Origin: Bacteroidaceae bacterium
Lineage (GTDB): Bacteria; Bacteroidota; Bacteroidia; Bacteroidales; Bacteroidaceae
Assembly: GCA_017933995.1 (NCBI GenBank)
Contig: JAGBKI010000011.1
Coordinates: 1 to 37,769, forward strand
DNA: 37,769 nt
Direction: 5' to 3'
This document shows positions 11,018 to 36,463 of this stretch, piece after piece. The stretch's first letter is position 1. Each line of letters begins with the position of its first letter. Below the pieces are notes generated by a model. The model was not told where the DNA came from, made no database searches, and saw nothing but the letters and a program-made list of their open reading frames with translations. The position numbers were made by a program, and so were the translations under genes.

Positions 11018-11749
11018 ATGAAGTATGCATTAGTGACTGGCGCGTCGAGAGGCATTGGGAAGTCCGTCGCCCTGCGCCTCGCCCGCGAAGGCTGGCCTGT
11101 GCTCATCAACTACTTGAGCAACCGCAGTGCCGCGCAGGAGGTGCTCGATGCTATTACCGCCGAAGGCGGCAAGGCCGAACTGCTGCCGTTCGACGTGGCC
11201 GACGGGTCGCAAGTGGAGGCTGCGCTCGACGGCTGGGAAACCGCCCATCCCGACGACTATGTGGGCGTGCTGGTCAACAACGCGGGCATAAGGCGAGACA
11301 ACGCGCTATTTATGATGTCGGACGGCGAGTGGGACGGGGTACTCTCGACCACGCTTGGCGGCTTCTTCTACATCACGCGGCGCATTCTCAAGCACATGCT
11401 TCCCCGCAAGCGCACGGGCAGAATCGTGAACGTCTCGTCATTGTCGGGCGTAAAAGGACTGGCTGGGCAAACCAACTACAGTGCCGCAAAAGCAGGACTT
11501 ATCGGCGCCACCAAAGCCTTGGCCTTGGAGGTGGCGGCGCGCGGTGTGACCGTGAACGCCGTCGCGCCGGGCTTTATAGAGACTGATATGACAAAAGAAC
11601 TACCCCGCGAACAGCTTTCCGCCCTCGTGCCAATGCAGCGCTTCGGCACGCCTGACGAGGTGGCCGGAACGGTGGCTTTCCTCGTTTCGGACGATGCGGC
11701 CTACATCACCGGCCAGGTTGTCGGTGTGAACGGCGGGCTGTACACGTAG
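11018..11749 (+). CDS. 3-oxoacyl-ACP reductase (FabG-like ketoreductase of the APE cluster)
   Basis: A 243-residue short-chain dehydrogenase that would reduce the beta-keto group after each chain extension, using NADPH. The Rossmann motif TGASRGIG is at residues 7-14, NNAG at 87-90, and the catalytic Ser141, Tyr154 and Lys158 are present (NVSSLSG, YSAAK). The Asn of the SDR tetrad is replaced (VLSTTLGGFF, Thr). The C-terminus has the usual VNGG. Start 11018 is chosen because the Rossmann motif begins right after it; an upstream ATG at 10970 overlaps the terminator hairpin. It is the first gene of the 26-gene run and corresponds in role to ApeQ of the Gram-negative APE pathway. It is the only ketoreductase in the cluster. 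Confidence 0.93.
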   Translation: MKYALVTGASRGIGKSVALRLAREGWPVLINYLSNRSAAQEVLDAITAEGGKAELLPFDVADGSQVEAALDGWETAHPDDYVGVLVNNAGIRRDNALFMMSDGEWDGVLSTTLGGFFYITRRILKHMLPRKRTGRIVNVSSLSGVKGLAGQTNYSAAKAGLIGATKALALEVAARGVTVNAVAPGFIETDMTKELPREQLSALVPMQRFGTPDEVAGTVAFLVSDDAAYITGQVVGVNGGLYT

Positions 11750-11785
11750 AAGCCTCGCGGACTGACTGAAAAAGAACACAAAGCA

Positions 11786-13015
11786 ATGCAAAAAAGAGTC
11801 GTGATAACGGGAGTGGGCATCTGGTCGTGCCTGGGAACCGACGTGGAAGCGGTGCGCGCGTCGCTCTATGCGGGCAAGTCCGGCATAGGGTTGCAGAAGG
11901 AGCGCCTGACGTACGGATACCGCTCCGGGCTGACGGGCATCGTGGAAGAGCCTGTTATTACAAAACAGATGCTCGACCGACACACCCGTGCTGGAATGCC
12001 CGAAGAAGCGCGCTACGCCTATATGGCCAGCCGCCAGGCCTTTGCGCAGGCGGGCGTCACGGACGAGTATCTCTGCAAGAACGAGGTGGGCTGTATCTTC
12101 GGCAACGACTCGTCGGCCAAGCCCGTCATAGAAGCGTCCAAAATCATGGACGAGAAGCACGACTCGGCGATGCTCGGCTACGGACTCATCTTCCAATCGA
12201 TGAACTCGACCGTGAATATGAACCTTAGCACAATATTCCACCTGCGCGGCGTGAACTTCACCATCAGCGCGGCCTGCGCCAGCGGCAGCCACAGCATAGG
12301 GCTGGGCTACATGCTCATACGCCAGGGTTTGCAGGAAATGGTGCTCTGCGGCGGGGCGCAGGAGACGAACCACTACTCGATGGCCTCGTTCGACGCGCTC
12401 GGCGCCTTCTCCGTCCGTATGGACGAGCCGACGAAGGCCAGCCGTCCGTTCGACCGCGACCGCGACGGTCTGATACCGAGCGGCGGCGCGGCGGCCTTGG
12501 TGCTGGAGGACTACGAACATGCCGTGAAGCGCGGCGCCACCATAGTGGCCGAGGTGGTGGGCTACGGCTTTTCCAGCAACGGCGGGGGCATTTCGGAACC
12601 CAGCGATGAGGGCAGCGTAATCGCGATGTCGCGCGCGCTGGCCGATGCCGGGGCACGGCTCGACGACATCGACTACATCAACGCTCACGCCACGTCCACC
12701 CACCAGGGCGACATGTACGAGGCCATTGCGCTGAACCGACTTTTCCACGGCCAGCGCGCTCTGATAAGCAGCACAAAGTCGATGACAGGACACGAGTGCT
12801 GGATGGCCGGGGCCAGCGAGGTGGTGTACAGTATCATCATGATGCAGCACAACTTCGTGGCGCCGAACATCAATTTCGAGAACCCCGACGAGCATTCCGA
12901 GAAGCTGCGCCTCGCCACGCGGACGGTCGATGTGGAAGTCAATACTGTGCTGAGCAACAGCTTCGGCTTCGGCGGCACCAACTCGGCGCTTGTGATAAAG
13001 AAACTGAAAGGTTAA
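11786..13015 (+). CDS. Beta-ketoacyl-ACP synthase (type II, FabF-like)
   Basis: A 409-residue ketosynthase with a complete catalytic set: Cys164 (SAACASGSHS), His301 (NAHATSTHQGD), Lys331 and His336 (STKSMTGHECW), and the C-terminal NSFGFGGTNSAL. It would catalyse decarboxylative condensation of malonyl-ACP in the cytoplasm. It starts 36 nt after the ketoreductase gene. Three ketosynthases are present in the cluster; which one pairs with the chain-length-factor-like protein and which one starts the chain cannot be settled from sequence, although 17058 is adjacent to the latter. NAHATSTHQGD instead of the more common NAHGTGT marks it as a separate ketosynthase branch. Confidence 0.93.
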   Translation: MQKRVVITGVGIWSCLGTDVEAVRASLYAGKSGIGLQKERLTYGYRSGLTGIVEEPVITKQMLDRHTRAGMPEEARYAYMASRQAFAQAGVTDEYLCKNEVGCIFGNDSSAKPVIEASKIMDEKHDSAMLGYGLIFQSMNSTVNMNLSTIFHLRGVNFTISAACASGSHSIGLGYMLIRQGLQEMVLCGGAQETNHYSMASFDALGAFSVRMDEPTKASRPFDRDRDGLIPSGGAAALVLEDYEHAVKRGATIVAEVVGYGFSSNGGGISEPSDEGSVIAMSRALADAGARLDDIDYINAHATSTHQGDMYEAIALNRLFHGQRALISSTKSMTGHECWMAGASEVVYSIIMMQHNFVAPNINFENPDEHSEKLRLATRTVDVEVNTVLSNSFGFGGTNSALVIKKLKG

Positions 13016-13034
13016 AAGATAAAGACTACGCACT

Positions 13035-13541
13035 ATGAAAAACATCGTATTGGCCGCCCTGCTGTGCTGCATAGCCACCTGCACCTGGGCGCAGGCCATC
13101 AAGAAGGACTCGCTCGCGGCCATAAAGCCCGGAACCCGCATCAACGTTGTGGTGGACTTCGCGGAAGCTGCCATCATGGGGATGGACGAAAAGGCTTTCG
13201 CCGCCTACGAGACGGACTGGAAAGCCGACAAGGGCACCGTGGTCGCCAACCTTGTGAACGGAATCAACAACAGGCTTGACGGTGTGCTGACCGTGGGCGA
13301 TTTCAGCGATTCCCCGTACACCTTAAAGGTAGACGTGAAGGACATCAGTGCGAAAAGCAAAATGGTGTGCGATGCGCGCCTGACCGGGCAGGACGGCAAG
13401 TTGTACTTATACGTGAAGCAGGTGAACGGTGGAAAGATTCCGCCGTTGCCGGGAACGAAACTGGCCCGAATTAAGTACTGGGCCACGTTTACCGGGCGCA
13501 GCCTGGGCAGCACCATCAGAAAACAGTATCTCAGCCAATAG
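13035..13541 (+). CDS. Secreted hypothetical protein in the APE cluster
   Basis: A 168-residue protein with a clear signal peptide (MKNIVLAALLCCIATCTWAQ) and no family I can name. The mature part alternates beta strands (INVVVDFAEAAI, YTLKVDVKDI, GKLYLYVKQVNGG). It has the same general order of elements as residues 20-200 of the SUMF1-domain protein at 8634: a strand, a segment with a D-W-x-x-D-K-like motif, a short helix with N-x-R-L or N-R-F, then a strand of the form Y-x-L/F-x-V. This suggests a shared domain, though only weakly. It is 19 nt after the ketosynthase gene and 11 nt before the methyltransferase gene, so it is co-transcribed; a role in envelope handling of the pigment is possible. 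Confidence 0.75.
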   Translation: MKNIVLAALLCCIATCTWAQAIKKDSLAAIKPGTRINVVVDFAEAAIMGMDEKAFAAYETDWKADKGTVVANLVNGINNRLDGVLTVGDFSDSPYTLKVDVKDISAKSKMVCDARLTGQDGKLYLYVKQVNGGKIPPLPGTKLARIKYWATFTGRSLGSTIRKQYLSQ

Positions 13542-13552
13542 CAACCGAAGCC

Positions 13553-14656
13553 ATGCACCTATCCACAGCATTACAAGAGAAGTACACCCGCGAAAGACTC
13601 ACGGCGCGCGAAGCCCAGCGGCTTGCGGAGTTTATCGCTTGGGGGCCAGTGGTGTTCCAAGCGTCACGGCTCATGGTGAAGTTTGGAATCCTGGACCTGC
13701 TGCGCGATTCCACAGACGGACTGACGCGCAAGGAGGTGTGCGACGCCACGGGGCTGGGCGACTACGCCGTGAAGTGTCTGCTGGAAGCCTCTTTGAGCAT
13801 CGGCACCGTGCTCGTCGATCCAGAGACGGAGCGTTACACGATATCCAAGACCGGCTGGTTCCTTCTCAACGATCCCGCCACGCGCGTCAATATGGACTTC
13901 ACTCACGACGTGAACTACTTGGGCTGGTTCGCTCTGGAAGAATCACTGAAAAGCGGCAAGCCCGAGGGACTAAAGCGCTTTGGCAACTGGCCGACGGTTT
14001 ACGAGGGCCTTTCACAACTGCCAGAGCAGGTGCAGAAAAGCTGGTTTGCCTTTGACCATTTTTACAGCGACTCGTCGTTTCCCGAGGCGTTGAGTATAAT
14101 CTTCGACGAGCGGCAGGTGCGTTCGCTCTACGACGTGGGCGGGAATACGGGCAAGTGGGCCTTGCAGTGCGTGGCCTATGACAAGGACGTGGAAGTCACC
14201 GTCCTTGACCTCCCGCAGCAGATAAGGATGATGCAAGAGCACATCAGGGACAAGGAAGGAGCGGCACGTATCAGCGGATACGGCATAGACCTCCTTGACA
14301 GCGCGGCGGCTTTCCCCCGACGCGCCGACGGGCCGGACGCCATCTGGATGAGCCAGTTCCTGGATTGTTTCAGCATGGAGCAGATTGTCGGCATCTTGAC
14401 GCGAGCCAAGGCCGCAATGGCCGACAATACACGTATATATATAATGGAGACCCTCTGGGACCGCCAGCGCTTTGAGCCGGCGGCGCTGTGTCTGACCATG
14501 ACAAGCCTCTATTTCACTGCAATCGCAAACGGGAACTCGAAGATGTATAACACCGAGGATATGGAGGCGTGCATCGGCGAGGCCGGTCTGGAGGTGGAGC
14601 GCATCTATGACAACCTGGGACAAGGGCACTCCATCATCGTGTGCAAGAAGAAATAA
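13553..14656 (+). CDS. SAM-dependent methyltransferase (O-methyltransferase type with winged-helix N-terminus)
   Basis: A 367-residue class I methyltransferase. Residues about 35-105 look like the dimerisation/winged-helix domain of plant-type O-methyltransferases (FGILDLLRD, LTRKEVCDATGL, YTISKTGWFLL). The SAM-binding motif I is DVGGNTGKW at 194-202, followed by the acidic post-motif VTVLDLP. The region that is usually H-x-W-x-D is replaced by WMSQFLDCFSMEQ. It probably methylates the aryl head group hydroxyl or another oxygen or carbon of the polyene; methylated aryl heads are known in aryl polyenes. The gene sits between the secreted protein and the first carrier protein gene. Confidence 0.88.
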   Translation: MHLSTALQEKYTRERLTAREAQRLAEFIAWGPVVFQASRLMVKFGILDLLRDSTDGLTRKEVCDATGLGDYAVKCLLEASLSIGTVLVDPETERYTISKTGWFLLNDPATRVNMDFTHDVNYLGWFALEESLKSGKPEGLKRFGNWPTVYEGLSQLPEQVQKSWFAFDHFYSDSSFPEALSIIFDERQVRSLYDVGGNTGKWALQCVAYDKDVEVTVLDLPQQIRMMQEHIRDKEGAARISGYGIDLLDSAAAFPRRADGPDAIWMSQFLDCFSMEQIVGILTRAKAAMADNTRIYIMETLWDRQRFEPAALCLTMTSLYFTAIANGNSKMYNTEDMEACIGEAGLEVERIYDNLGQGHSIIVCKKK

Positions 14657-14685
14657 TCCCCCTAATACAATTAAGCGTAAAGACC

Positions 14686-14937
14686 ATGACAAGAAAAGAA
14701 ATTGAAGAGAAAGTAAGAGCTTTCCTGACCGAGGACCTCGAAATAGAGGAGGACAAGATGGCCGATGATGCCAAACTGAAAGAAGACCTGGGCATCGATA
14801 GCCTGGACTTCGTGGACATCGTGGTAATCGTGGAAAAGACCTTCGGCTTCAAGATCAAGCCTGAAGAGATGACCGAGGTGCGCACCCTCGGCCAGTTCTG
14901 CGATTACATCGAAACGCAGGTGGGCGAAAAGGAGTAG
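14686..14937 (+). CDS. Acyl carrier protein 1
   Basis: An 83-residue carrier protein. The phosphopantetheine attachment site is Ser39 in LGIDSLDFVDIV, and the acidic helices typical of type II ACPs are present. It would carry the growing chain as a thioester. I took the ATG at 14686 rather than the one at 14641, because the latter overlaps the end of the methyltransferase gene and adds residues not typical of ACPs. It is one of three carriers in the cluster, which suggests separate starter and extension carriers. Confidence 0.93.
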   Translation: MTRKEIEEKVRAFLTEDLEIEEDKMADDAKLKEDLGIDSLDFVDIVVIVEKTFGFKIKPEEMTEVRTLGQFCDYIETQVGEKE

Positions 14938-14999
14938 CCCAAGCCCGCCGCGCGCTCCCCAAAAACCTGGCGGAAAGCACCTTAAAGAAACAGCCCCCA

Positions 15000-15902
15000 A
15001 TGCCGAAGCACGAAGATTGGAAAGGCAATACGGACGGTACGCCTTGGATGCACCGTGTCCTCATACGCCTGCTGCGCAGCGTGAACTTGCGCTGGGCTTA
15101 TGCCGTGATGGGCGTGTGCGTCGTGCCGCCCTACCTGCTGTTCTCGCGCAAGGGCTATCGGGCGATTTACCGTTACTTCCGCCGTCGGCACCTCATGGGT
15201 CGCTGGGAGGCTTTCCGACACACTTGTCTGAACCACTACCGTTTCGGGCAGGTAATCCTTGACCGCTTTGCGGCCTACGGTGGGCGGCAGTTCCATTTCG
15301 AGATTGACGGCAACGAGACTTTTCAGCACCTGCTGGGTAGCGAGGGTGGCTTTATAGTCCTGAGCTGCCACGTGGGTAACTATGAGCTGGCAGGCTATAC
15401 GTTCCGCTCGTCCGGGAAGCGCTACAACGCGCTTGTGTTTCCCAAGGAGGCGGCTGTGGTGATGAAGAACAGGCAGCGCCTGCTGTCAGGAAACAACATC
15501 CGCATGATTCCCGTGCGGGACGACATGGAGTACGTTTTCCAAGTGAGCAACGCCCTTGCGGACGGCGAGGTTGTGAGCGTTCCTTGCGACCGCTTGTTCG
15601 GCTCTCCGCGCTTTGTGGAGTGCGACGTGCTGGGCGGAAGGGCGCGGTTGCCGCTGGGGCCGTTTGCCATGGCCATACAGCGGGGTGTCCCGGCTGTGAG
15701 TGTTTTTGTGATGAAAGAAACGGTGTACAGTTACAAGGTCTTCGTGAGGCCATTGGAGCTTCAGTACGACGCTTCGGTCTTGCGACCGAGGGAAAAGGCC
15801 GCCGTCTTGGCACAGTGCTTCGCTGATGAACTTGGCAGGATTCTGGGCCAGTACAAAGAGCAGTGGTTTAACTATTACGACTTTTGGAACGATGAAAAAT
15901 AG
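15000..15902 (+). CDS. LpxL/HtrB-like acyltransferase
   Basis: A 300-residue acyltransferase of the LpxL/lysophospholipid acyltransferase superfamily, the type that transfers acyl chains from ACP to a lipid at the inner membrane. The catalytic H-x4-E motif is HVGNYE at 124-129. A hydrophobic N-terminal segment (about 35-48) may anchor it, and a second conserved block VSVPCDRLFG lies at about 193-202, where LpxL proteins have a D-Q-x-x-G-like stretch. In the cluster it could move the finished polyene from ACP to a lipid acceptor. Its stop codon overlaps the next start by 11 nt. It is one of four acyltransferase domains in this operon. Confidence 0.88.
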   Translation: MPKHEDWKGNTDGTPWMHRVLIRLLRSVNLRWAYAVMGVCVVPPYLLFSRKGYRAIYRYFRRRHLMGRWEAFRHTCLNHYRFGQVILDRFAAYGGRQFHFEIDGNETFQHLLGSEGGFIVLSCHVGNYELAGYTFRSSGKRYNALVFPKEAAVVMKNRQRLLSGNNIRMIPVRDDMEYVFQVSNALADGEVVSVPCDRLFGSPRFVECDVLGGRARLPLGPFAMAIQRGVPAVSVFVMKETVYSYKVFVRPLELQYDASVLRPREKAAVLAQCFADELGRILGQYKEQWFNYYDFWNDEK

Positions 15903-16335
15903 CGACTTCAGGGACGTGGACGTGCTGGACTTGCTTCCGCAGCAGCCACCGTTCGTGATGGTTGACAGGCTGGTCTTCCTGGACGGGAAGGTTACTGTCA
16001 CGGAGACGGACGTGCGCCCAGACAACCTTTTTATGGAGGACTACGGCCTGAACCCTTGCGGCTTGATTGAGAACATTGCCCAGACCTGCGCCGCGCGCAT
16101 GGGATACATCAACAAGTACGTCTATCGCGAAGGCGTGAAGCTCGGTTTCATCGGCGCCATCAAAGACCTCTGTGTTTTCCGCACGGTGCGTGCGGGGGAA
16201 CGGCTCACCACGCGTTTCGAGGTGTTGCAGGAGGTGATGCAGCTGACGCTCGGGCGGGCGGAGGTCAAGGTGGGTGACGAAATGGTGGTGACGGCGGAGA
16301 TAAAGATAGCTTTGAGCGACATCGATGCAAAATGA
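15892..16335 (+). CDS. Hotdog-fold dehydratase-like protein (ApeP-like)
   Basis: A 147-residue FabZ/FabA-related hotdog protein. The N-terminus has LLPQQPPFVMVDRL, matching the LLPHR-PFLLVD element of FabZ, and the central helix reads LNPCGLIENIAQTCAARMGY with the conserved Glu and Gln. The HFPG segment carrying the catalytic His of FabZ is not present; the aligned stretch is LFMEDYGLNPCG. This layout fits the ApeP-like branch found in APE clusters better than canonical FabZ. The start at 15892 overlaps the acyltransferase stop. Likely role: one half of a dehydratase pair with the 19290 product, or a ketide-binding partner. Confidence 0.82.
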   Translation: MKNSDFRDVDVLDLLPQQPPFVMVDRLVFLDGKVTVTETDVRPDNLFMEDYGLNPCGLIENIAQTCAARMGYINKYVYREGVKLGFIGAIKDLCVFRTVRAGERLTTRFEVLQEVMQLTLGRAEVKVGDEMVVTAEIKIALSDIDAK

Positions 16336-16341
16336 ACGCGA

Positions 16342-16767
16342 ATGGAAACGAACGTACTGAAAGCCTCCAAAGTGTTTGATGTGAGGTTCAGCGAGGTGGA
16401 CTCGATGAACGTGGTGTGGCACGGTGCCTACCCGCTTTATTTCGAGGACGCGCGCGAAGAGTTTGGGCGCAAGTACAAGCTGGAGTACTTGCGCATAGCC
16501 GAATTCGGCTACTACGCCCCGCTCGTGGATTTGGAGTTCCACTACCGCCGTCCGCTGACCTACAAGATGCGCCCCCGCATAGATATCACCTTCCATCCCA
16601 CGGAGGCAGCCAAGATTGTATTCGACTATGAAATTCACGAGGGAGCCGACGACGAGATTGCGGCCACAGGTCGGAGCGTGCAGGTCTTTATGGACAAGGA
16701 CTACCGGCTGGTGTGGACGACGCCCCAGTTCTTTCTGGAGTGGAAACGTATGTGGCACCTTATTTAA
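16342..16767 (+). CDS. Acyl-ACP/acyl-CoA thioesterase (4HBT hotdog family)
   Basis: A 141-residue YbgC/4-hydroxybenzoyl-CoA thioesterase-like protein. The family signature is clear at residues 16-39: FSEVDSMNVVWHGAYPLYFE, with Asp20 and His27 in the active-site positions and the following D-A-R. Length is normal. It could release the chain or an aromatic starter from a thioester, or hydrolyse stalled intermediates. The gene is 6 nt after the dehydratase-like gene and 20 nt before the second carrier protein. Confidence 0.9.
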   Translation: METNVLKASKVFDVRFSEVDSMNVVWHGAYPLYFEDAREEFGRKYKLEYLRIAEFGYYAPLVDLEFHYRRPLTYKMRPRIDITFHPTEAAKIVFDYEIHEGADDEIAATGRSVQVFMDKDYRLVWTTPQFFLEWKRMWHLI

Positions 16768-16787
16768 CACACTAAAATAAAATCACT

Positions 16788-17045
16788 ATGAAGGACCTGG
16801 TAACAGAGTTAAAGGAGAAAACGATCGCTGTGTTGAACTTGGATGAAATGAAGCCCGAGGACATCGGAAACGATGACCCGCTGTTTGGTGACGGGCTGGG
16901 CCTGGACTCGATTGACGCCCTTGAGCTGATTGTGATGCTGGAGAAGGAGTACGGCATTAAGATCAAGGACACGTCGGCGGGCAAGGACATCTTCAAGTCG
17001 ATGAACACAATGGCCTCCTTTGTCGAGGCGAACCGCGTGAAGTGA
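16788..17045 (+). CDS. Acyl carrier protein 2
   Basis: An 85-residue carrier protein with the attachment Ser41 in GLGLDSIDALELIV. The DSID form and the following EKEYGIKIKD are typical of carriers in APE/flexirubin clusters. It lies directly upstream of the second ketosynthase and the chain-length-factor-like gene, so it is the likeliest carrier for chain extension. Confidence 0.93.
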   Translation: MKDLVTELKEKTIAVLNLDEMKPEDIGNDDPLFGDGLGLDSIDALELIVMLEKEYGIKIKDTSAGKDIFKSMNTMASFVEANRVK

Positions 17046-17057
17046 GCACAGCGCCGT

Positions 17058-18251
17058 ATGGAGGAGCCTATCGTTATCACGGGCGCGGGCATCGTTTCTG
17101 CCATCGGACTGGGCAAGGCCGCTACCTTGACCTCGCTGCTCGGCGGACGCACGGGTGTCGGGCCGGTGAAGTACTTGCGGACGGCGCACACGGAGTTTCC
17201 CGTGGGCGAGGTGAAACTGAGCGACGACGAGATGAAGTCGATGCTCGGCATTGACCGTGAGCCTACGACGCGGGCGGCGCTGATGGGTATGCTTGCGCTC
17301 CGTGAGGCGCTCGATGAAGCGGATCTATTATATAATACGGAGTGCGGGCGCCGCGCCCTGCTTTCGGGTATCACCGTGGGCGGGATGGACAAGAGCGAGC
17401 AGCACTATTTGGATTACATAGAGAACGACACGGCGAACGAGTACATCCTGACGCACGACTGCGGGGCGACGACCGAGATGATGGCCGATCGTTTCAGCGG
17501 ATTCGGCATGGTGACGAGCATCTCCACGGCTTGTTCCTCGGCGGCCAACGCCATTATTATGGGGGCGGAACTGATTAAGAGTGGGCGGACAGACATCGCG
17601 GTGGCGGGCGGAACAGAGTGCATCACAAAGTTCCACTTGAACGGCTTCAACTCCCTGATGATACTCTCTCGCGAGCAGTGCCGCCCGTTCGACCGGCGGC
17701 GTGCGGGACTGAATCTTGGCGAGGGCGCTGCGTTCCTGGTGCTTGAGACAGCCTCGTCGGCCCGCCGTAGGGGTGTCCGGGCACTTGCAGCACTATGCGG
17801 CTACGGCAACGCCTGCGATGCCTTCCATCAGACGGCCTCGAGCGAAGACGGCGAGGGTTCCTTCCTTGCGATGCGCAAGGCTCTGGCCTCGGCCGGCCTG
17901 GAACCTGCGGACATAGGCTATGTGAACGCCCACGGCACGGGTACGCCAAACAATGACCTAAGCGAGAGCCGTGCACTAAGGCGCGTCTTCGGTGCAGCCA
18001 TGCCGCCTGTATCGTCCACGAAGGGGCTCACCGGCCACACAACAAGCGCCTCGGGCGCAGTCGAGGCCACTATCTGTCTGCTGGCACTGCGCCACGGTTT
18101 CCTTCCCGCCAACTATGGCTGGAGGGAGCCGATGGAGGAGGGTGTACGTCCAGTTGTGACGGTGACACCAGCGCAGCTCCGCCATGTGATGTGCAACTCG
18201 TTTGGTTTCGGCGGTAACGACTCCTGCCTCATACTTTCGGAAAACGTTTAG
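17058..18251 (+). CDS. Beta-ketoacyl-ACP synthase (partner of the chain-length-factor-like protein)
   Basis: A 397-residue ketosynthase with Cys159 (STACSSAANAI), His292 (NAHGTGTPNND), Lys322 and His327 (STKGLTGHTTS), and the closing NSFGFGGNDSCL. All catalytic residues are in place. It is followed after 3 nt by the cysteine-less ketosynthase-like gene, the same pairing as ApeO/ApeC in the characterised APE system, where the two form a heterodimer that extends the polyene. The proposed pairing here is by gene order and family. Confidence 0.93.
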   Translation: MEEPIVITGAGIVSAIGLGKAATLTSLLGGRTGVGPVKYLRTAHTEFPVGEVKLSDDEMKSMLGIDREPTTRAALMGMLALREALDEADLLYNTECGRRALLSGITVGGMDKSEQHYLDYIENDTANEYILTHDCGATTEMMADRFSGFGMVTSISTACSSAANAIIMGAELIKSGRTDIAVAGGTECITKFHLNGFNSLMILSREQCRPFDRRRAGLNLGEGAAFLVLETASSARRRGVRALAALCGYGNACDAFHQTASSEDGEGSFLAMRKALASAGLEPADIGYVNAHGTGTPNNDLSESRALRRVFGAAMPPVSSTKGLTGHTTSASGAVEATICLLALRHGFLPANYGWREPMEEGVRPVVTVTPAQLRHVMCNSFGFGGNDSCLILSENV

Positions 18252-21203: not shown

Positions 21204-21566
21204 ATGAAAGTACCAAGAGAATACTACGACGAGATCTTCCCCTTCGCCGACCGCTGGGGGCTTCCCTCTGCCTGCGGCCTAAAGATTCGCCGCCATGGGG
21301 GCACCACCTATGTCATCGTAACGGAACTCTATCAGGAAAATCCCGGCAACAGCATCACTTATGCCTCCGAGCAGCTCGCCGAACAAATATGTCTCGCCAA
21401 AGGGCTGAACCCCGCTAGCATCGTCTACATCGAGTGCGCCCCCGACACGGATTCGAAGCTCTCCTTCTACGACGAAGCCTACTACCAAGTAAACCTCGGC
21501 GCCGACCTACAGCATAAGTACACACGCCTGTCGCCAGAACGGATAAAACAAATCCTGTCCGCATGA
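21204..21566 (+). CDS. Conserved-looking hypothetical protein
   Basis: A 120-residue soluble protein without signal peptide or membrane segment. I do not recognise a named family. The central stretch TYVIVTELYQENPGNSITYA followed by SEQLAEQIC and P-A-S-I-V-Y-I-E resembles uncharacterised proteins I associate with plasmid or mobile regions in Gram-negative bacteria, but this is memory, not a search. It lies 14 nt after the radical SAM gene and overlaps the next ketosynthase start by 4 nt (ATGA), so it is translationally coupled to polyketide genes. Confidence 0.75.
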   Translation: MKVPREYYDEIFPFADRWGLPSACGLKIRRHGGTTYVIVTELYQENPGNSITYASEQLAEQICLAKGLNPASIVYIECAPDTDSKLSFYDEAYYQVNLGADLQHKYTRLSPERIKQILSA

Positions 21567-29187: not shown

Positions 29188-30020
29188 TAAAAGTCTTTTT
29201 ATTCTTGGGCTTTTGGCCCTTGGCTGTCTTCCCGCAGATAAACATCTGGAGCGGGACGGAGACAAGGAAAAACGTCGAGCTTACCCCCTATCTGGTGTCC
29301 GACTCTGGCGCAAAGGCTGTCATCGTCTGCCCAGGAGGCAGCTACTTTTGGCATGATATTGAGACTGAAGGACACGGTGTAGCCAGGTGGCTCCAGTCCG
29401 AGGGCATTGCGGCTTTTGTGCTCAATTACCGCACGGCCTATGTCCCGGCCTATGTATCCCGCTTCCGCTTGCTGTTCAGGGGAAACCGATACCCCGATCC
29501 GCAGGACGACCTCCGTCAGGCGCTACGCTACGTGAGACAGCATGCCGATGTCTTCCGCATTGACCCGGAAAAGGTCGGGGCGATGGGTTTTTCGGCAGGA
29601 GGGCACCTGGTGATGTCGGTGGTAGAACTTTTCGGGCAGGAGGACTGGCCTGCGTTTGTCGTGCCAGTTTACCCCGTGGTAACGATGAGCGCCGATTGCG
29701 TCCATAAGCGTTCCCGGCGTGGGTTGCTGGGCGACTCGCGGGTAAAGAACCGCGATTTGCGCGACCTCCTTTCTCTGGAAAAGCACGTCAGGAGCGGTTT
29801 TCCGCCGGTTTTTTTGATAAACTGCAAGGACGACCCGGTCGTAGACTATTGTAATTCCGTTTTGCTGGACGCTGCACTAACGGCTGCCGCTGTACCCCAT
29901 AAATATTTCCTATACGACACGGGTGGCCACGGCTTTGGCGCGAGCGATGAAAAAGGAACAAAGGAAAGCCGCCAATGGAAAAAAGAATTCTTGGCATGGC
30001 TTGACGAATTATATAAATAA
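29172..30020 (+). CDS. Exported alpha/beta-hydrolase (esterase)
   Basis: A 282-residue serine hydrolase of the acetyl-esterase/BD-FAE type. An N-terminal hydrophobic stretch (MYRFLIKVFLFLGFWPLAVF) is a signal peptide or anchor, so it acts in the envelope. The oxyanion region is VIVCPGGSYFW, the nucleophile elbow is GFSAGGH (Ser141), and the acid and His are in INCKDDPVVDY (Asp221) and GGHGFG (His253). It could trim or transfer an acyl group on the exported polyene lipid. It overlaps the previous gene by 16 nt. The preferred substrate is unknown. Confidence 0.88.
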   Translation: MYRFLIKVFLFLGFWPLAVFPQINIWSGTETRKNVELTPYLVSDSGAKAVIVCPGGSYFWHDIETEGHGVARWLQSEGIAAFVLNYRTAYVPAYVSRFRLLFRGNRYPDPQDDLRQALRYVRQHADVFRIDPEKVGAMGFSAGGHLVMSVVELFGQEDWPAFVVPVYPVVTMSADCVHKRSRRGLLGDSRVKNRDLRDLLSLEKHVRSGFPPVFLINCKDDPVVDYCNSVLLDAALTAAAVPHKYFLYDTGGHGFGASDEKGTKESRQWKKEFLAWLDELYK

Positions 30021-30026: not shown

Positions 30027-31172
30027 ATGAGCAACAGCCGTTTTGACGACATCCGGCCATACCGCGACGACGAAATCCCGTCAGCGATGTGCCGCATTGC
30101 GGAGAGCGAGAGTTTTCCGCTAATAGCCTCTTACGTTTTTCCCGACATGCCCCTGGAGTCGGCGGCGCGGACGGTAAAGGGATATGCCACGATACGCGAG
30201 TTCCAGCACGATGCCATGCGGCGCGTGAACGAACAAGTCATAGCCCGCAGCATCTCCGAACTGTCGTATTCTGGCGTGGATGCTCTCTCGCCGGGAGTGC
30301 CTTACCTTTTTGTCTCCAACCATCGCGACATAGTATTGGACTCTTGCCTGCTACAGTATATCCTTGTGGAGAACGGGCTTGAGACCACCGAAATTACTTT
30401 CGGTGCGAACTTGATGATGAACCCGCTGGTCATTGACATCGGCAAGGCCAACAAGATGTTCCGTGTGGAGCGCCCGAGTGCGAATATAAAGGAATTCTAC
30501 CGCTCGTCGCTGCATCTGTCGGAATACATCAGGGAGAGTGTGACGCAGCGCGGGGAGTCTGTATGGATTGCTCAACGAAACGGACGGACGAAGGACGGTA
30601 AGGACCTGACAGACCAGGGGCTGATAAAAATGTTTTGCCTAAGCGAGCGCAAGGATAAGGTTAAAGCGCTTGCAGATCTGAACATCGTGCCCGTCTCCGT
30701 GTCCTATGAGTGGGAGCCTTGCGACGTGCTGAAGGCGCTCGAACGCTATGATTCGCTTGCCGGCCCCTATGTGAAGAAACCCGGCGAAGATCTCAACAGT
30801 ATCCTTACGGGTATTCTGTCCGAGAAGGGACGGGTGCATTTCCACGTTTGCAAGCCGCTGTCCGCCACCGAACTGTCCGCGCTCGGCAGTGAGGCGGACA
30901 GCGAATACCACCGTTTGGTGGCAGCTTTGATTGATAAGAGGATAAACGCGACCTACCGCCTCTACCCGAACAACTACATCGCCCACGATTTGCTCTATGG
31001 CGATGCGGCTTTCAAGTCCATGTACAACGAGGGGCAGCGCGCCCGCTTCCTCGCTCACATGGAAACGCTTGCGGGAAGTGGGCGGACGGACGGAAAGCGG
31101 CAGCGGGACATCTTCCTCGGCATTTACGCCAACCCCATAGAGAGCAAAGGGCTTACAGAATCCATAAAATAA
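30027..31172 (+). CDS. Glycerophospholipid-type acyltransferase, divergent motif
   Basis: A 381-residue acyltransferase of the PlsC/PlsB superfamily. The core is YLFVSNHRDIVLDSCLLQYI, where the usual N-H-x4-D has one extra residue between His99 and Asp105. The segment normally reading E-G-T-R appears as WIAQRNGRTKDGKD. Such variants are known to me in uncharacterised Bacteroidetes proteins. No signal peptide; it is probably peripheral to the inner membrane. It follows the esterase gene by 6 nt and precedes the large exporter fusion by 10 nt. Confidence 0.8.
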   Translation: MSNSRFDDIRPYRDDEIPSAMCRIAESESFPLIASYVFPDMPLESAARTVKGYATIREFQHDAMRRVNEQVIARSISELSYSGVDALSPGVPYLFVSNHRDIVLDSCLLQYILVENGLETTEITFGANLMMNPLVIDIGKANKMFRVERPSANIKEFYRSSLHLSEYIRESVTQRGESVWIAQRNGRTKDGKDLTDQGLIKMFCLSERKDKVKALADLNIVPVSVSYEWEPCDVLKALERYDSLAGPYVKKPGEDLNSILTGILSEKGRVHFHVCKPLSATELSALGSEADSEYHRLVAALIDKRINATYRLYPNNYIAHDLLYGDAAFKSMYNEGQRARFLAHMETLAGSGRTDGKRQRDIFLGIYANPIESKGLTESIK

Positions 31173-31182
31173 TGCGTTCGGG

Positions 31183-34100
31183 ATGAGTGCGCTTTTCATA
31201 AACATATACGGCTACCTGCGCGGGCGTCCTCTGTTGAGGGTGCTTTCGCTGCTCGTGGTTACAGTCCTAATGGTGTTGCTGCTGTTCAAGCAGAACTACC
31301 GGGAGGATATTTCCGAGTTCCTGCCGCTGTCGGGCAAATACCGGGATGCGCTGAACGTGTATCAAGGCATATCCGGCGCAGACCGCATCATCATTATGTT
31401 CCAGCAAGATGGCTCTTCCGCCTCCTCGGCCGACACTGTCGTGAAAGCGATGGAGCTGTTCGAGTCGCGTTTTCCCGCTGTCTGCGGGGAGGAGGCCGCC
31501 TGTCGGCTGACAGCGCAGGTGGACCTTGAGCGCTACTCCAGACTTGCCGGGTTTGTGTACGGGCATATCCCGTATTTCTTGGAGGAGGCGGACTATGCGC
31601 GGCTCGATTCTTTATTGGCCGATGCGGACTACATACCCAGGCGGCTGGCCAACGACAAGCAGATGTTGATGTCGCCTACCTCGGGGCTGTTTGCCGCAAA
31701 CGTCGGGCGCGACCCGCTCGAAGCCTTTACGCCAGTGGTGGCCGCCCTACAGCCGATGGCCGACGGGCTTGACTATGAACTTTACGACGGCTACGTGTTT
31801 TCGCCGGATATGGAGCATGGACTGCTGATGTTCTCCTCGCCCTACGGGGCAAGTGAAACGGAGGAGAACGCGAAGCTGCTGGAACAGCTGGAGGCACTGG
31901 CGGGCGAGGTCGGGCAGGTTTTCCCGAATGTCAGCGTGCGTTTTGTCGGCGCGCCAGTCATTGCCGTGGGAAATTCCTTGCAAATAAAGAAGGACAGCCT
32001 CGTTTCGGTTTCTCTGGCTGTACTGCTTATTGTTGTTTTGCTGTTCGCCGTCTTCAGGAATGTCCGAAACATCCTGCTTATCGTGGTTTCGATTGCCTGG
32101 GGGTGGCTGTTTGCAATGGGCGCTCTGGCTTTGTTGCGCGACAATGTTTCTGTAATCGTTGTCGGAATCTCATCCGTGATTATCGGCATTGCCATCAACT
32201 ACCCGCTACACCTCATTGCGCATTTGAGCCACACGCCCGACGTGAAGTCCGCGCTGAAGGAAATAGTTTCTCCCCTGCTCATCGGAAACATCACCACCGT
32301 AGGCGCGTTCTTGGCGTTGGTGCCGCTAAAGTCTGTAGCCTTGCAGGACTTGGGCCTATTCAGTTCTTTCCTTTTGATAGGAACGATTTTGTTCGTTCTT
32401 TTATATCTTCCCCATCTTGTCAGGGCCACCCGAAAACAGGAGGAGGGCGGTGTGGCGTTTTCCCGCATAGCCGACAAGTCTTTTGAGGGCAGCCGCGCTT
32501 TGGTGTGGCTGGTGCTTGTTCTAACATGCGTCTTCGGATATTTCAGCTTCTCCACGTCTTTCGATGCCAACATCAACCACATCAACTACATGACTGCCGA
32601 ACAGCGTGCGGACATGGCTTATCTGCAAGAGACCATGACGAATGCGCGCGATCAGCAAACGGTTTACGTCGTGTCCAGCGATACCTCGTTCGACGCTGCC
32701 GTGGCGCGGAGCGAGGGCATGCAGCCCTTGCTCCGGGCAATGGTGGACGAGCGGCGCGCCTCCGAGGTCAAGTGCTGCCACCGCTTTGTCCTTTCCGCGC
32801 AGGAACAAGGGCGCAGGCTCCTCCGCTGGCGCTCGTTTGTTGATCGCTATGGGGAGCGGCTGGAGCGGGAAGTGCGCAGTGCTGCCTTGGCAGAGGGCTT
32901 CGCCGAGTCTTCCTTTGACGACTTTTATGCCCTGCTTGGAAGGGACTTTGAGGTGATGCCACCCGACTCTTTCGCGTCGTTATATGCTTCGGCCTTTTCG
33001 AATTTTGTCGTAGCTGATTCGGCCAACGGGCGGTTCCACATCGTGACGCAGCTACAAGCCGCCCCGTCCGCCCTCCTTTCGCTGGAGCAGCGCGTGGACA
33101 CGGCGTCGGCAGGCGTGTACGCTTTCGACGTGGCAGGAATGAACTCCTCCATCGCAGCGAGCATTTCCGACGATTTCAATTACATCGGCTGGGCTTGCGG
33201 CTTGATTGTGTTCCTTTTCCTGTGGTTCTCCTTCGGCAACATAGAGCTGGTCATGCTGTCTTTTCTGCCTATGGCTGTCAGCTGGGTGTGGATCCTGGGC
33301 ATTATGGCGCTGTTCCATATTCAGTTCAACGTGGTTAATGTCATTCTGGCTACGTTCATTTTCGGTCAGGGCGACGACTATACCATTTTCATGACCGAGG
33401 GCAGCCAGTATGAGTATGCCTATCAGCGCAAGATGCTGACCTCTTATCGGAGCAGCATTTTCGTGTCGGCCTTGATCATGTTCATCGGAATGGGCACGCT
33501 CATTCTTGCCCGCCACCCTGCGCTCCACTCCTTGGGCGAAGTGACCATCGTCGGTATGTTCTCGGTCGTGCTGATGGCTTTCCTGTTCCCGCCGCTCATC
33601 TTCAAGTGGCTGGTATACAGGCGCGGGGAGGAACGACGACGCCCGCTCACGTTGTCGGCCTTTGCCAATACCGTCTTCTGTGGCTTCGTGTTCTTTTTGC
33701 AATTGGCTTTAGCTTATATTGTTGGCTTCGCCCTTTTGGGCGTGTTGCGCCCCACCGTCGCGCGGCGCAGGAAGTTTCGCCGCTTGGTGAACCGCTGCTT
33801 CCGTCTGGATATGGCCAGCACGCCACGCATAAGGTTCTGCTTACAGAACGAGTACGCCGAGAACTTTTCCCGCCCAGCGGTAGTCATCTGTAACCACCAG
33901 TCGTTCCTGGACACAGCCTATCTGATGGCCCTCTCGCCCAACATCGCGATCGTGGCCAATGAGGGTGCGGGCAACAACGTCTTTATTCGGCAAATCTTCA
34001 AGTGGCTGGACTATTACATCATCCCCAAAGACGGCGTGCCCGCAGACAGTCCGCTTGACGCGCTAAGCCCTGAAGGGCGCTGCGTGGTGTTCTTTCCTGA

Positions 34101-34806
34101 GGGCAGACGCAATCCTGGCTCGTCGGTACTCCGCTTCCACAAAGGGGCGTTCCTTTTCGCGGAGGAGCACGGGCTTGACATCATACCCGTGTTTCTGCAC
34201 GGGGCGAACGACGTCTTCCCGCGCGGTTCGCTTTGCGCTTATCCCGGCAGTGTTTCGGTGATTGTGGGACGGCGCATACCGTTTGCAGAGTGGCGGGCGG
34301 CCAGCGGAGATTATGCCGAGGCTACGCGCGCTTTCCATCGGTTCTATGTAGAAACATTCCGTGCGTTGAAGGCCGAAAAAGAGGATGCGAATTATTTCGC
34401 CGGATGGGTAAAGGACACATACCGTTATAGAGGCGCGGACATCCGCCGTGCGGTGAACAAGAACCTCAATCGTTTCTGCAACTACGCCGCGTGGACACAG
34501 TGCGACGCGGACGCGGGCGGGACGCTGGCCGTCGTGAACGCTGGGTGGGGCGAGTTCCCCATACTTCTCGCCTTGACCCATCCTGAGATCAAGGTCGTCG
34601 CCTTTGAAGCCGACGCCGACAAGTTCCGGGTCGCTGCAAACTGTGCTGCGCACCTCTGCCAGAACCTCACCATAATCGCCAAACCGCCTGCGGAGGAACT
34701 CCTTTCGCAGCTCGGCGAAGCTAAGGCCGACAAGGTGTTCCTGCTTTCGCCCGCCGACGGCGACGAGGCGCTCTTGCGTCCATTCTCCCCAACGGTGGTA
34801 AACTGA
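31183..34806 (+). CDS. Trifunctional fusion: MMPL exporter, lysophospholipid acyltransferase, methyltransferase-like domain
   Basis: A 1207-residue protein. Residues 1 to about 870 are an RND/MMPL-type exporter with two sets of helices (about 15-35 and 265-425, then 445-460, 670-805 and 840-860) around two periplasmic loops. Residues about 880-1080 are a PlsC-type acyltransferase with N904-H905-x4-D910 (CNHQSFLDT) and PEGRRNPG (Glu973). Residues about 1110-1207 resemble the start of a class I methyltransferase (VVNAGWGEFP, KVVAFEADADKF) but are short, without a clear second half. Such a three-part fusion is a known annotation class in Bacteroidetes. It would acylate and export the polyene lipid. 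The 116 nt after the stop include coding-like sequence in other frames. Confidence 0.9.
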   Translation: MSALFINIYGYLRGRPLLRVLSLLVVTVLMVLLLFKQNYREDISEFLPLSGKYRDALNVYQGISGADRIIIMFQQDGSSASSADTVVKAMELFESRFPAVCGEEAACRLTAQVDLERYSRLAGFVYGHIPYFLEEADYARLDSLLADADYIPRRLANDKQMLMSPTSGLFAANVGRDPLEAFTPVVAALQPMADGLDYELYDGYVFSPDMEHGLLMFSSPYGASETEENAKLLEQLEALAGEVGQVFPNVSVRFVGAPVIAVGNSLQIKKDSLVSVSLAVLLIVVLLFAVFRNVRNILLIVVSIAWGWLFAMGALALLRDNVSVIVVGISSVIIGIAINYPLHLIAHLSHTPDVKSALKEIVSPLLIGNITTVGAFLALVPLKSVALQDLGLFSSFLLIGTILFVLLYLPHLVRATRKQEEGGVAFSRIADKSFEGSRALVWLVLVLTCVFGYFSFSTSFDANINHINYMTAEQRADMAYLQETMTNARDQQTVYVVSSDTSFDAAVARSEGMQPLLRAMVDERRASEVKCCHRFVLSAQEQGRRLLRWRSFVDRYGERLEREVRSAALAEGFAESSFDDFYALLGRDFEVMPPDSFASLYASAFSNFVVADSANGRFHIVTQLQAAPSALLSLEQRVDTASAGVYAFDVAGMNSSIAASISDDFNYIGWACGLIVFLFLWFSFGNIELVMLSFLPMAVSWVWILGIMALFHIQFNVVNVILATFIFGQGDDYTIFMTEGSQYEYAYQRKMLTSYRSSIFVSALIMFIGMGTLILARHPALHSLGEVTIVGMFSVVLMAFLFPPLIFKWLVYRRGEERRRPLTLSAFANTVFCGFVFFLQLALAYIVGFALLGVLRPTVARRRKFRRLVNRCFRLDMASTPRIRFCLQNEYAENFSRPAVVICNHQSFLDTAYLMALSPNIAIVANEGAGNNVFIRQIFKWLDYYIIPKDGVPADSPLDALSPEGRCVVFFPEGRRNPGSSVLRFHKGAFLFAEEHGLDIIPVFLHGANDVFPRGSLCAYPGSVSVIVGRRIPFAEWRAASGDYAEATRAFHRFYVETFRALKAEKEDANYFAGWVKDTYRYRGADIRRAVNKNLNRFCNYAAWTQCDADAGGTLAVVNAGWGEFPILLALTHPEIKVVAFEADADKFRVAANCAAHLCQNLTIIAKPPAEELLSQLGEAKADKVFLLSPADGDEALLRPFSPTVVN

Positions 34807-34922
34807 AAAACGCTGTGGAATAAAGCCGCCAGAAATAAGTTTTGAAATGTGTAATCGGCGGGGACAACTACGGCCAGGCGGTGGTCAAGCTTTTGTCCTC
34901 CCCCCCAAAAACGGATAAAACC
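34807..34922 (+). other. 116-nt gap with coding-like remnant
   Basis: This is by far the largest gap in the cluster. A frame beginning with TTG at 34842 (KCVIGGDNYGQAVVKLLSS) is open into the following carrier-protein gene, and reads like a protein segment rather than random sequence. It may be the displaced C-terminal end of the methyltransferase-like domain of the upstream fusion after a frameshift, or simply an alternative extension of the carrier protein. Confidence 0.35.
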
Positions 34923-35150
34923 ATGAAAGAAAGAATCAGAGCGCTTGTAGAGGACGCAGCCCCGCTGGCTAACGTGGATGCTGACTTCCTTTTTGCCGAA
35001 CTCGACTCCTTGGGCGTTACAGCTATCCTGATGACGCTGGCTTCGGAGTACGGCATAGAATTGGAGGCATCGGATGCCACGCCGAGGAACTTCAAGAACC
35101 TTGACAGCATCGTGGCAATGGTAGAGAAGAAATTGCGGGAGAAACAATGA
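34923..35150 (+). CDS. Acyl carrier protein 3
   Basis: A 75-residue carrier protein with attachment Ser29 in FAELDSLGVTAILM, followed by ASEYGIELEASDAT and the usual last helix (SIVAMVEKKL). I take the ATG at 34923 because it gives a normal carrier length; a longer frame from a TTG at 34842 is less likely. Its stop overlaps the start of the ligase gene (ATGA), suggesting it is the carrier that the ligase loads with the aromatic starter. Confidence 0.9.
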   Translation: MKERIRALVEDAAPLANVDADFLFAELDSLGVTAILMTLASEYGIELEASDATPRNFKNLDSIVAMVEKKLREKQ

Positions 35151-36463
35151 GACTTGTTGATTACCTCAAAGAGCATGCAGCCCGGCAACCCCAGAAGGTC
35201 GCTGTCGTGTCGCAAGGTGCTGAAACGACCTACGCCTGCCTGTGGCAACTTGTCCAGGCCAAGGCCCAGGCGTTGCGCGCCGATGGGGTGGGGCAGGGTA
35301 GGGTGGTCGTGTTCCGCACGACGCAAGATTTAGAATTCCTTGTCACCTACTTCGCCATACACTTATGCGGCGCAGTGGCTATGCCTTTGGAACAGGCCAT
35401 GCCTACCGCGCGCTTCTCGGACATCGAGCGGCGTTACACGGCTTTTAGTCCTCCGCCTGGGGTGGCCGACATCCTTTTCACCACCGGCACAACAGGCGAT
35501 TCGAAAGGCGTGATGGTAGGCCACGGAGCGATTATGGCCAATGCAGAGAACCTTGTCTTGGCGCAGGGATTCACTGACGAGCTTGTTTTCATCATTTGCG
35601 GTCCGCTCAACCACATCGGCAGCCTTTCAAAAATATTCCCCGTCGTAATGACTGGCGGCACGCTATATCTGCTGGAGGGACTGAAGGACTTGAACCGTTT
35701 TTACGAGGCTCTCGGCTACCCCTGTGCCAAGATGGCCACCTTCATGGTGCCAGCCAGCATCCGCATCTTGTTGCAACTGAGCGGCAAACGCCTCTCGGGC
35801 TATTCCGATAAGGTTGATTTCATTGAGACAGGCGGCGCGCCGATTTCCCAGGCCGATATGCAGGCGTTGTGCAAAGCTTTGCCGTACAGCCGTCTCTACA
35901 GCACGTATGCTTCGACCGAGACAGGCATAGTGTCCACTTACAATTTCAACGACGGCAGGTGTGTGGCCGGGTGTTTGGGACACCACATGAAAAACACCTT
36001 TCCCTTCATTACGCCTGAGGGGCGTGTCGCTGTACGCGGCCTGACCCTAATGAGCGGCTACGCCGACGACGTGGCGCAGACGGCTAAGGTGCTGAGGGAC
36101 GGGGCGGTCTACACCGCCGACAATGGCACTTTGGATGCCGACGGGCGCCTGTTCCTCACGGGGCGTAACGACGACGTGATAAACATTGGCGGGTTCAAGG
36201 TGTCGCCGTCGGAGGTAGAGGACGTCGCGCTCTCGTTTCCCAGCGTGAAGGACTGCATCTGCGTCTGTGCGCATTCCGAACAATTGGGTAATATCCTGAA
36301 ACTGCTTGTGGTGACCGACGGGGGAACCGCGATTGACAAGCAGCGCCTCGCGCGCCACCTCGCGCAGACGCTGGAGCGCTACAAAGTTCCCCAACTTTAT
36401 GAGCAGGTGGGCAGCATCCGCCGCACCTACAACGGAAAGCTCGACCGCAAGGCATACCGATAG
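35147..36463 (+). CDS. Acyl/aryl-ACP ligase of the AMP-forming (ANL) family
   Basis: A 438-residue adenylate-forming ligase. Motif A3 is LFTTGTTGDSKG (110-121), A5 is YSTYASTETG, A8 is GRNDDVINIGGFKV, and the catalytic Lys431 is in RTYNGKLDRKAYR at the C-terminus. It is compact compared with usual acyl-CoA synthetases. By family and by coupling to a carrier protein gene it would activate an aromatic acid with ATP and load it on ACP, as ApeH does with 4-hydroxybenzoate in Gram-negative APE pathways. The actual acid is unknown. It is the last gene of the cluster. Confidence 0.9.
   Translation: MRLVDYLKEHAARQPQKVAVVSQGAETTYACLWQLVQAKAQALRADGVGQGRVVVFRTTQDLEFLVTYFAIHLCGAVAMPLEQAMPTARFSDIERRYTAFSPPPGVADILFTTGTTGDSKGVMVGHGAIMANAENLVLAQGFTDELVFIICGPLNHIGSLSKIFPVVMTGGTLYLLEGLKDLNRFYEALGYPCAKMATFMVPASIRILLQLSGKRLSGYSDKVDFIETGGAPISQADMQALCKALPYSRLYSTYASTETGIVSTYNFNDGRCVAGCLGHHMKNTFPFITPEGRVAVRGLTLMSGYADDVAQTAKVLRDGAVYTADNGTLDADGRLFLTGRNDDVINIGGFKVSPSEVEDVALSFPSVKDCICVCAHSEQLGNILKLLVVTDGGTAIDKQRLARHLAQTLERYKVPQLYEQVGSIRRTYNGKLDRKAYR

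Follow-up and report, generated by a model that had tools for sequence, protein, structure and literature searches.

What does a polyene-type gene cluster that carries a B12-type radical S-adenosylmethionine (SAM) protein make, and with what does it begin its chain? The question is raised by a stretch of 37,769 nucleotides (the window), which is contig C1 of a Bacteroidaceae bacterium genome of 2.48 Mb in 66 contigs with 84% completeness, and in which 26 coding sequences, found from an ORF (open reading frame) list, translations and Pfam scans, follow one another on the plus strand from 11018 to 36463. By its gene content, this cluster is a gut-Bacteroidales member of the aryl-polyene (APE)/flexirubin family, and its special trait, as far as the genes tell, is that the starter module of its relatives, an aromatic-amino-acid lyase plus the ligase FlxY, is swapped for an acyl carrier protein (ACP3) plus a different ligase. 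We hold it likely that this is an operon-like cluster for a polyene lipid that is loaded by ligase and ACP3 after such a starter-module swap and tailored by the radical SAM protein (rSAM) and CrtISO-like flavoproteins.

What kind of cluster is it? The preliminary description of this DNA had reported a continuous plus-strand run with an APE/flexirubin-type core and a set of extra genes, and both run and core are borne out. The run comprises a ketoreductase (KR), three ketosynthases (KS1 to KS3), a KS partner without the catalytic Cys, three ACPs, two hotdog dehydratase-like proteins, a 4HBT thioesterase, an AMP ligase, a LolA carrier and an MMPL exporter, besides the rSAM, two CrtISO-like flavoproteins, a fusion of a family 2 glycosyltransferase (GT2) with PlsC, an ArnE/EamA-like protein and an esterase with a signal-like N-terminus. 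To that earlier list are added an ApeB/FlxJ-type methyltransferase, an LpxL-like acyltransferase, a second PlsC-like protein, a LolB2-like protein, a 120-residue protein, an exported protein at 13035-13541, and PlsC and methyltransferase-like parts fused to MMPL. Three proteins pass the curated NCBIfam cut-offs for flexirubin clusters (FlxB, FlxJ and LolA2_flexi), and the APE cluster of E. coli CFT073, a set of 18 proteins (L201) to which the E-values relate, has matches for 15 of the 26 (to ApeQ, R, B, F, E, K, O, C, I, P, L, M, and J or D); the matches of MMPL to ApeM, LolA to ApeL, the KS partner (chain-length factor, CLF) to ApeC, the second hotdog protein (hotdog2) to ApeI and the FabZ-like one to ApeP are weaker. 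KS1, KS2 and KS3 retain complete Cys-His-Lys-His sites, in the partner Ser takes the place of the Cys, and each ACP has its DSL/DSI serine. Hence the window has a KS with a Cys-less partner, KR, dehydratases and ACPs homologous to those of a characterised cluster (weakly so for ApeC, ApeI and ApeP), LolA/MMPL and GT2/acyltransferase genes for transport and attachment, and, for the head group, the ApeB/FlxJ methyltransferase, which is 78-80% identical in five loci with the window's gene order. When 148 genomes were drawn from the phylum, the FlxJ model matched three, only the window's own exceeding the cut-off, plus the named control Bacteroides ihuae. The product is probably a related polyene lipid that is not yet described, and an aryl head is likely, mainly because the ApeB/FlxJ-type methyltransferase is retained. 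The genes and the evidence for each are as follows.

11018..11749, +, ketoreductase (FlxB/ApeQ type); NF053542 FlxB 368.9 against a cut-off of 340; 45% to E. coli ApeQ
11786..13015, +, ketosynthase KS1 (ApeR-like); Pfam; 36% to ApeR; catalytic C-H-K-H
13035..13541, +, exported protein of no known family; no Pfam match; in 0/60 full-flank loci (defined below); one weak match in G254 (25%)
13553..14656, +, SAM methyltransferase (FlxJ/ApeB family); NF053543 592.5 against 560; 46% to ApeB
14686..14937, +, ACP1; PF00550; ApeF-like, 39%; ORF opens at 14641, start predicted
15000..15902, +, LpxL-like acyltransferase; PF03279; matches the acyltransferase half of ApeJ
15892..16335, +, hotdog dehydratase-like (ApeP-like), start predicted; FabZ models below cut-off; ApeP by phmmer (weak)
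16342..16767, +, 4HBT thioesterase (ApeK-like); PF13279; 34% to ApeK
16788..17045, +, ACP2 (ApeE-like); PF00550; 49% to ApeE
17058..18251, +, ketosynthase KS2 (ApeO-like); Pfam; 32% to ApeO; C-H-K-H
18255..19268, +, Cys-less KS partner, CLF (ApeC-like, weak); PF13723; Ser at the Cys column; 23% to ApeC
19290..19868, +, hotdog dehydratase (ApeI-like, weak); match to ApeI; low-complexity insert of about 70 residues
19894..21189, +, B12-type radical SAM protein; CxxxCxxC at residues 176-183
21204..21566, +, 120-residue partner of the radical SAM protein, no family; beside rSAM in 80/80 kept loci; no Pfam match
21563..23263, +, KS3 with a conserved C-terminal domain without family match, a separate ORF in G322 and G567; 35% to ApeO; C-H-K-H
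23276..23626, +, ArnE/EamA-like small membrane protein; PF00892
23639..24262, +, LolA2-type carrier; NF053544 LolA2_flexi 227.3 against 125
24213..24683, +, LolB2-like exported protein; NF053540 20.9 bits, below its cut-off of 60
24680..26182, +, GT2-PlsC fusion; ApeJ GT2 half (32%) plus ApeD-like acyltransferase
26175..27683, +, CrtISO/CrtD-like FAD oxidoreductase A; family models below cut-offs
27676..29187, +, CrtISO/CrtD-like FAD oxidoreductase B, start predicted; below cut-offs; 35% to copy A
29172..30020, +, BD-FAE-type alpha/beta-hydrolase esterase, signal-like N-terminus; PF20434; GFSAG
30027..31172, +, PlsC-like protein; PF01553 29.1 against 23
31183..34806, +, MMPL exporter with PlsC acyltransferase and C-terminal methyltransferase-like part; Pfam; CbiT-like 19.6 bits, below cut-off
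34923..35150, +, ACP3, start predicted; PF00550; directly upstream of the ligase in 10/10 loci, the window's included
35147..36463, +, AMP ligase of the alternative starter module; PF00501; ortholog in 15/27 genomes tested, its own included

With what, then, would the chain begin? The ligase had been called an aryl ligase, a name that is not supported: E. coli ApeH is not matched even at a threshold of E 0.1 and FlxY only at chance level (E 0.35), nothing else in the window resembles FlxY better, and neither a PF00221-family lyase was found in its own genome (84% complete) nor the chorismate lyase UbiC in any of 19 genomes, the window's included. The pair that marks flexirubin clusters, FlxA tyrosine ammonia-lyase with FlxY, is thus not seen in this genome, and DarB has no match within the window. 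Among structures, the ligase is matched best by peptide synthetase chains, with feruloyl-CoA synthetase and 4-coumarate ligase among the others. A scan of GTDB contigs gave at least 579 relatives, of which the best 80 loci were kept and represent the closest relatives, not the whole family; their record labels give Bacteroidales for 75, Eubacteriales for one (L150) and no order for 4. FlxY stands in 62 of the 80, ACP3 with the ligase in 6, neither in 12 as far as the available stretch reaches, and both in none. Two of these 12 end early (L118, L170); a genome-wide search located the ligase in the genomes of the other ten, and in three of the ten (L193, L194, L197) MMPL is followed by ACP3 and ligase as in the window. 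Genome-wide, the ligase occurs in 15 of 27 genomes, namely the window's and 14 more of its type (G839-G849, G851-G853), and is missing from the remaining 12; ACP3 lies directly 5′ of it in all ten loci examined, the window's included. In G322, FlxY passes its model (703.4 against 520) and is located between the esterase and the PlsC-like gene.

The lyase follows the same division. PF00221 matches fall into two score groups, at least 610 bits and below 560 bits, a split that is our own reading; the lyases seen inside clusters (G442, G437, G014, G322, G133, G165) are all in the lower, cluster class, and a high-scoring one (L183) is 34% identical to a cluster lyase, against at least 46% among cluster lyases. 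The cluster class is found in 0/15 ligase genomes, two of which (G844, G846) have a match of the high group, and in 11/12 genomes without the ligase; it is present in 25 of 28 genomes of a larger lyase scan and in all five FlxY-type genomes of one lyase scan. In a quick tree drawn from the DNA of 81 rSAM genes, 79 of which could be labelled (17 ligase, 62 FlxY), the starter label needs five changes, at least four of them forced by well-supported branches, against a mean of 15.7 when labels are shuffled. Such a swap points to a starter that is not made by that lyase. A feeder role of the esterase tied to the swap was considered and is not supported, since the esterase is found with both starter types.

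What does the rSAM add? Its CxxxCxxC cysteines are invariant in 21 aligned rows, PF02310 and PF04055 score below their gathering thresholds, and a profile search of the PDB at E 0.01 returned AprD4 as the sole match (E 5e-5). Against TIGR04072 (rSAM_ladder_B12) it scores 42.3 bits with a cut-off of 360, which places it in another subfamily. Orthologs occur in 37 of 393 Bacteroidales genomes drawn, the 36 besides its own at 62-83% identity with the next matches at 36%; none was found in 36 other genomes of the same genus, and among 395 genomes drawn from the phylum, only the window's own gave a match at E 1e-90. Six of the 37 ortholog rows carry at least one in-frame stop (G335, G193, G075, G282, G192, G082). 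The gene for the 120-residue protein stands beside rSAM in all 80 kept loci. A same-genus cluster (G442) has the lyase, FlxY and two CrtISO-like genes, and no rSAM was seen in the contig stretch examined, so that rSAM looks like a tailoring rather than a core function. The idea that rSAM substitutes for the lyase was rejected, as the two share a contig, separated by about 1-20 kb, in G322, G377, G137, G335, G133, G382, G319 and G165. The role that fits rSAM, its 120-residue partner and the CrtISO-like proteins best is that of tailoring enzymes suited to an anaerobe, with reactions that are predicted. In the flexirubin-like cluster of G133 there is, in addition to the rSAM ortholog, a second B12-type radical SAM protein (L055:13339-14694) that passes TIGR04072 (427 against 360) and has relatives at 49-75% in L087, L089 and L090; the ladderane label of that model may be too narrow.

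Are these genes really additions, and do they stay with the core? We counted them in the 60 of the 80 kept loci that have at least 9 kb on both sides (full-flank loci). The 120-residue protein is present in 60, and the esterase, the PlsC-like protein, GT2-PlsC, MMPL and at least one CrtISO-like gene in 58 each, so the synteny of extra genes with the core, which the preliminary description had proposed to check, is found. Other genes are less constant (hotdog2 54, LolA 49, ArnE-like 47, CLF 46, KS2 38), and the low count of KR (4/60) is an effect of the 10-kb flank. Two distinct CrtISO-like genes occur in 36/60 loci, one in 22/60 and none in 2/60, so the pair is not universal. A flexirubin-type cluster in G567, of the same class as the window's genome, served for judging the rSAM and CrtISO additions against that type: it has a lyase, KR, LpxL-like protein, dehydratases, thioesterase, KS, methyltransferase (FlxJ model 394 bits, below cut-off), ACP, partner, LolA, GT2 and MMPL, with a gene close by that is FlxY-like (50% identical to that of G322), while rSAM, CrtISO-like, 120-residue, ArnE-like and esterase genes were not found among its listed ORFs. 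These five kinds thus look like additions, by one comparison cluster. Overall, the earlier view of the gene set as unusual is partly borne out: rSAM, its 120-residue partner, the CrtISO-like flavoproteins, the exported esterase and the PlsC-like protein are additions, yet conserved beside the core. FAD-dependent monooxygenase/halogenase-like proteins lie beside the methyltransferase in G466 (L188:3-1217) and beside the lyase in G567 (L185:7821-9050); with no rSAM seen in either, they are a possible oxygen-dependent counterpart of the rSAM step. In the window's own genus, the partner CLF was found in 7 of 58 genomes, its own included, and two shortened APE remnants were noticed, one with KS2 and a cut partner in one reading frame (L071 of G432) and one in which only about 105 residues of the partner match (G033:C6), which suggests decay of the cluster in this genus.

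How far does the window differ from the known systems? With apeA-R of E. coli CFT073 it shares, in some cases weakly, KR, KS with its Cys-less partner, a second KS, two dehydratases, two ACPs, methyltransferase, thioesterase, GT2/acyltransferases, LolA and MMPL. No E. coli counterpart was found for rSAM, the 120-residue protein, the CrtISO-like proteins, the esterase, the ArnE-like and LolB2-like proteins, the second PlsC-like protein, ACP3, the ligase and the 13035-13541 protein. The GT2-PlsC fusion had been counted among the unusual genes and has to be taken off that list, since ApeJ, according to passages of PMC8253772, is itself a glycosyltransferase/acyltransferase, and the GT2 half in the window is 32% identical to it; the difference is in the fusion partner, which in the window is an ApeD-like acyltransferase with the ApeJ-like one separate, whereas E. 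coli ApeJ joins GT2 to its own acyltransferase half. The gene set therefore remains unusual in what it has beyond E. coli APE and G567 and keeps beside the core, the fusion being ordinary in kind. A glycosylated, acylated product, as earlier suggested, is plausible from GT2 and the acyltransferases, and holds equally for characterised APE clusters. Compared with the flexirubin clusters of Chitinophaga pinensis (flxA-Y) and Flavobacterium johnsoniae, for which Flx functions are taken from passages of PMC3992019, the window has the same general kinds of genes and passes the FlxB, FlxJ and LolA2 models, and differs in the starter and DarB searches given above. Other rSAM clusters of Bacteroidales (G322, L092-L171) have the same set of rSAM, 120-residue protein, esterase, CrtISO-like, GT2-PlsC and MMPL and differ in the starter, FlxY being that of most kept loci.

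What, then, would the cluster make? Its most likely function is the synthesis of an outer-membrane polyene lipid by an APE-type type II system, with an acid loaded by ligase and ACP3. The ligase would adenylate a carboxylic-acid starter and load it onto the adjacent ACP3. By homology with E. coli APE, which is predicted in passages of PMC8253772 to start from 4-hydroxybenzoate, KS2 and its Cys-less partner, aided by KS1 and KS3, would lengthen the starter by malonyl units, the pair of hotdog dehydratases would, with KR, make the chain a conjugated polyene, the FlxJ/ApeB-type methyltransferase would methylate the head group, GT2 and acyltransferases would put the chain on a lipid, and MMPL, LolA and LolB2 would deliver it to the outer membrane. 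Tailoring of the polyene or head group by rSAM with its 120-residue partner and by the CrtISO-like flavoproteins would be oxygen-independent.

The starter leaves room for other readings. It might be that the cluster is a plain APE cluster living on an aryl acid that is scavenged or otherwise made, e.g., plant p-coumarate, ferulate or 4-hydroxybenzoate, so that the swap alters supply and not product class; the exported BD-FAE-type esterase may then free such acids from plant cell walls. The retained ApeB/FlxJ methyltransferase, the feruloyl-CoA synthetase and 4-coumarate ligase structures among the ligase matches, and the likeness of the esterase to BD-FAE (over cut-off) and acetylxylan esterases (below cut-off) agree with it, as does the habitat: the titles of 35 of the 80 kept loci name a ruminant, and 24 more bear RUG names, which we take to stand for rumen genomes. 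Since the ligase finds its closest structures among peptide synthetase chains and the esterase does not track the swap, we regard this as quite possible, though somewhat short of probable. If ACP3 and ligase loaded an aliphatic or other non-aromatic acid, the product would be a non-aryl polyene lipid; it would fit with the failure to find an aromatic lyase or UbiC in the window's genome and with a ligase not detectably like FlxY or ApeH, and it is made unlikely by the methyltransferase, whose family is linked to aryl heads.

The role of rSAM can be doubted, too. A proposal made for anammox clusters, if carried over, would have it and the CrtISO-like enzymes close rings in the polyene and so give a carbocyclic lipid, ladderane-like or other. 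According to passages of PMC2649909, radical SAM proteins, one of which in Kuenenia has a B12-binding domain, are found together with phytoene-dehydrogenase-like proteins and divergent KS paralogues in fatty-acid clusters of Kuenenia and Desulfotalea as well, a likeness drawn from description and not from sequence, and a TIGR04072 protein over the cut-off does stand in the flexirubin-like cluster of G133. The window's rSAM, however, belongs outside TIGR04072, MMPL/Lol export and the ApeB-like methyltransferase indicate APE lipids, and CrtISO-like genes are present in G442 with no rSAM in its stretch, so such a product seems highly improbable. That the rSAM module is a neighbour with its own function, merely riding with APE clusters, is very unlikely in our view: in G388 the ortholog is near DarB- and DarH-family genes (524.7 against 450 for StlD/DarB and 542.9 against 550 for DarB, just under; DarH 398.5 against 300), and the only APE-like match in the stretch is FabG-like (41%), but dialkylresorcinol genes are part of the flexirubin pathway too, and GT2-PlsC and MMPL matches lie inside the loci on the same strand in 58/60. 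A flavodoxin-like protein of G388, which we presume to be DarA, has 0 NCBIfam matches and is unconfirmed. A bolder form of our own reading, in which the polyene lipid skeleton is altered without oxygen by the B12-type rSAM (methylated or cyclised, up to ladderane-like) and begins with an unknown starter acid on an exchangeable loading module, strikes us as quite unlikely.

The reading that we prefer, a polyene lipid loaded by ligase and ACP3 and tailored by rSAM and the CrtISO-like enzymes, has the following points against it. The product of the cluster is a predicted one. Genomes and loci are related, so the counts are not independent, and the window's genome, as said, is 84% complete. Seven of the ligase labels on the tree come from inside the locus and 10/17 from the genome-wide search and not from the examined rSAM locus; only 7 of the 28 lyase-scanned genomes were also in the ligase search; identity behind the lyase score classes was checked for the single high-scoring match L183; and the match of lyase with FlxY is imperfect, G214 having FlxY and no lyase-family match at 99% completeness. 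As to rSAM, it occurs in L160 and L163 without KS2, CLF, LolA, GT2 or MMPL in the available stretch, its 120-residue partner was not detected beside it in G388 and G165, and in G388 it sits away from APE genes, so that its polyene substrate is putative.

Is the run one unit at its proper place? With the ORF starts used, intergenic gaps range from -50 to +62 bp, with about +116 bp before ACP3 if the predicted start holds, and five loci (L092, L093, L094, L097, L098) keep to the order of genes in the window up to the ends of their flanks, except for the 13035-13541 gene, so the layout is not chance. Promoter and terminator scans gave nothing above shuffled sequences; the scan presumably does not cover Bacteroidales promoters. 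Upstream, FGE-like and beta-barrel proteins (by Pfam) and, on the minus strand at 616-6741, what we take from the translations to be an RND-type efflux set are excluded from the cluster, as is a downstream minus-strand gene (36551-37768) that we take, with its domains seen, to be radA. A contig from the wrong bin is not supported, radA being 69-75% identical to 13 same-genus genomes; of the 31 genomes searched, 2 gave no match and the 16 others matched at 54-73%, and because G840 and G841 reach 73%, this is only mild evidence. Horizontal transfer of the cluster was considered as a possibility. Two further details concern single genes: the insert of about 70 residues in the ApeI-like dehydratase (19290-19868) is missing from 13/13 aligned relatives, and in the PlsC-like protein (30027-31172) a pattern search did not find HX4D, with H-X5-D seen by eye at the expected place.

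What does all this mean? In the open-licence literature we found no account of an rSAM-bearing gut-Bacteroidales version of the cluster, and none that joins flexirubin with radical SAM. Thus, as judged from sequence, the cluster is known in general kind (APE/flexirubin), and what is new is the conserved B12-type rSAM together with the different starter-loading module. Shared at 62-83% identity by 36 further genomes among the 393 Bacteroidales drawn, the rSAM gives work on oxygen-free lipid tailoring a defined target, and one carrier of the ligase type, Caecibacteroides pullorum AN421 (L110), has a strain name and so may be in culture. Head-group change in these pathways could be tested directly on this starter module, since the tree has at least four switches of it and genomes with the alternative ligase lack the lyase.

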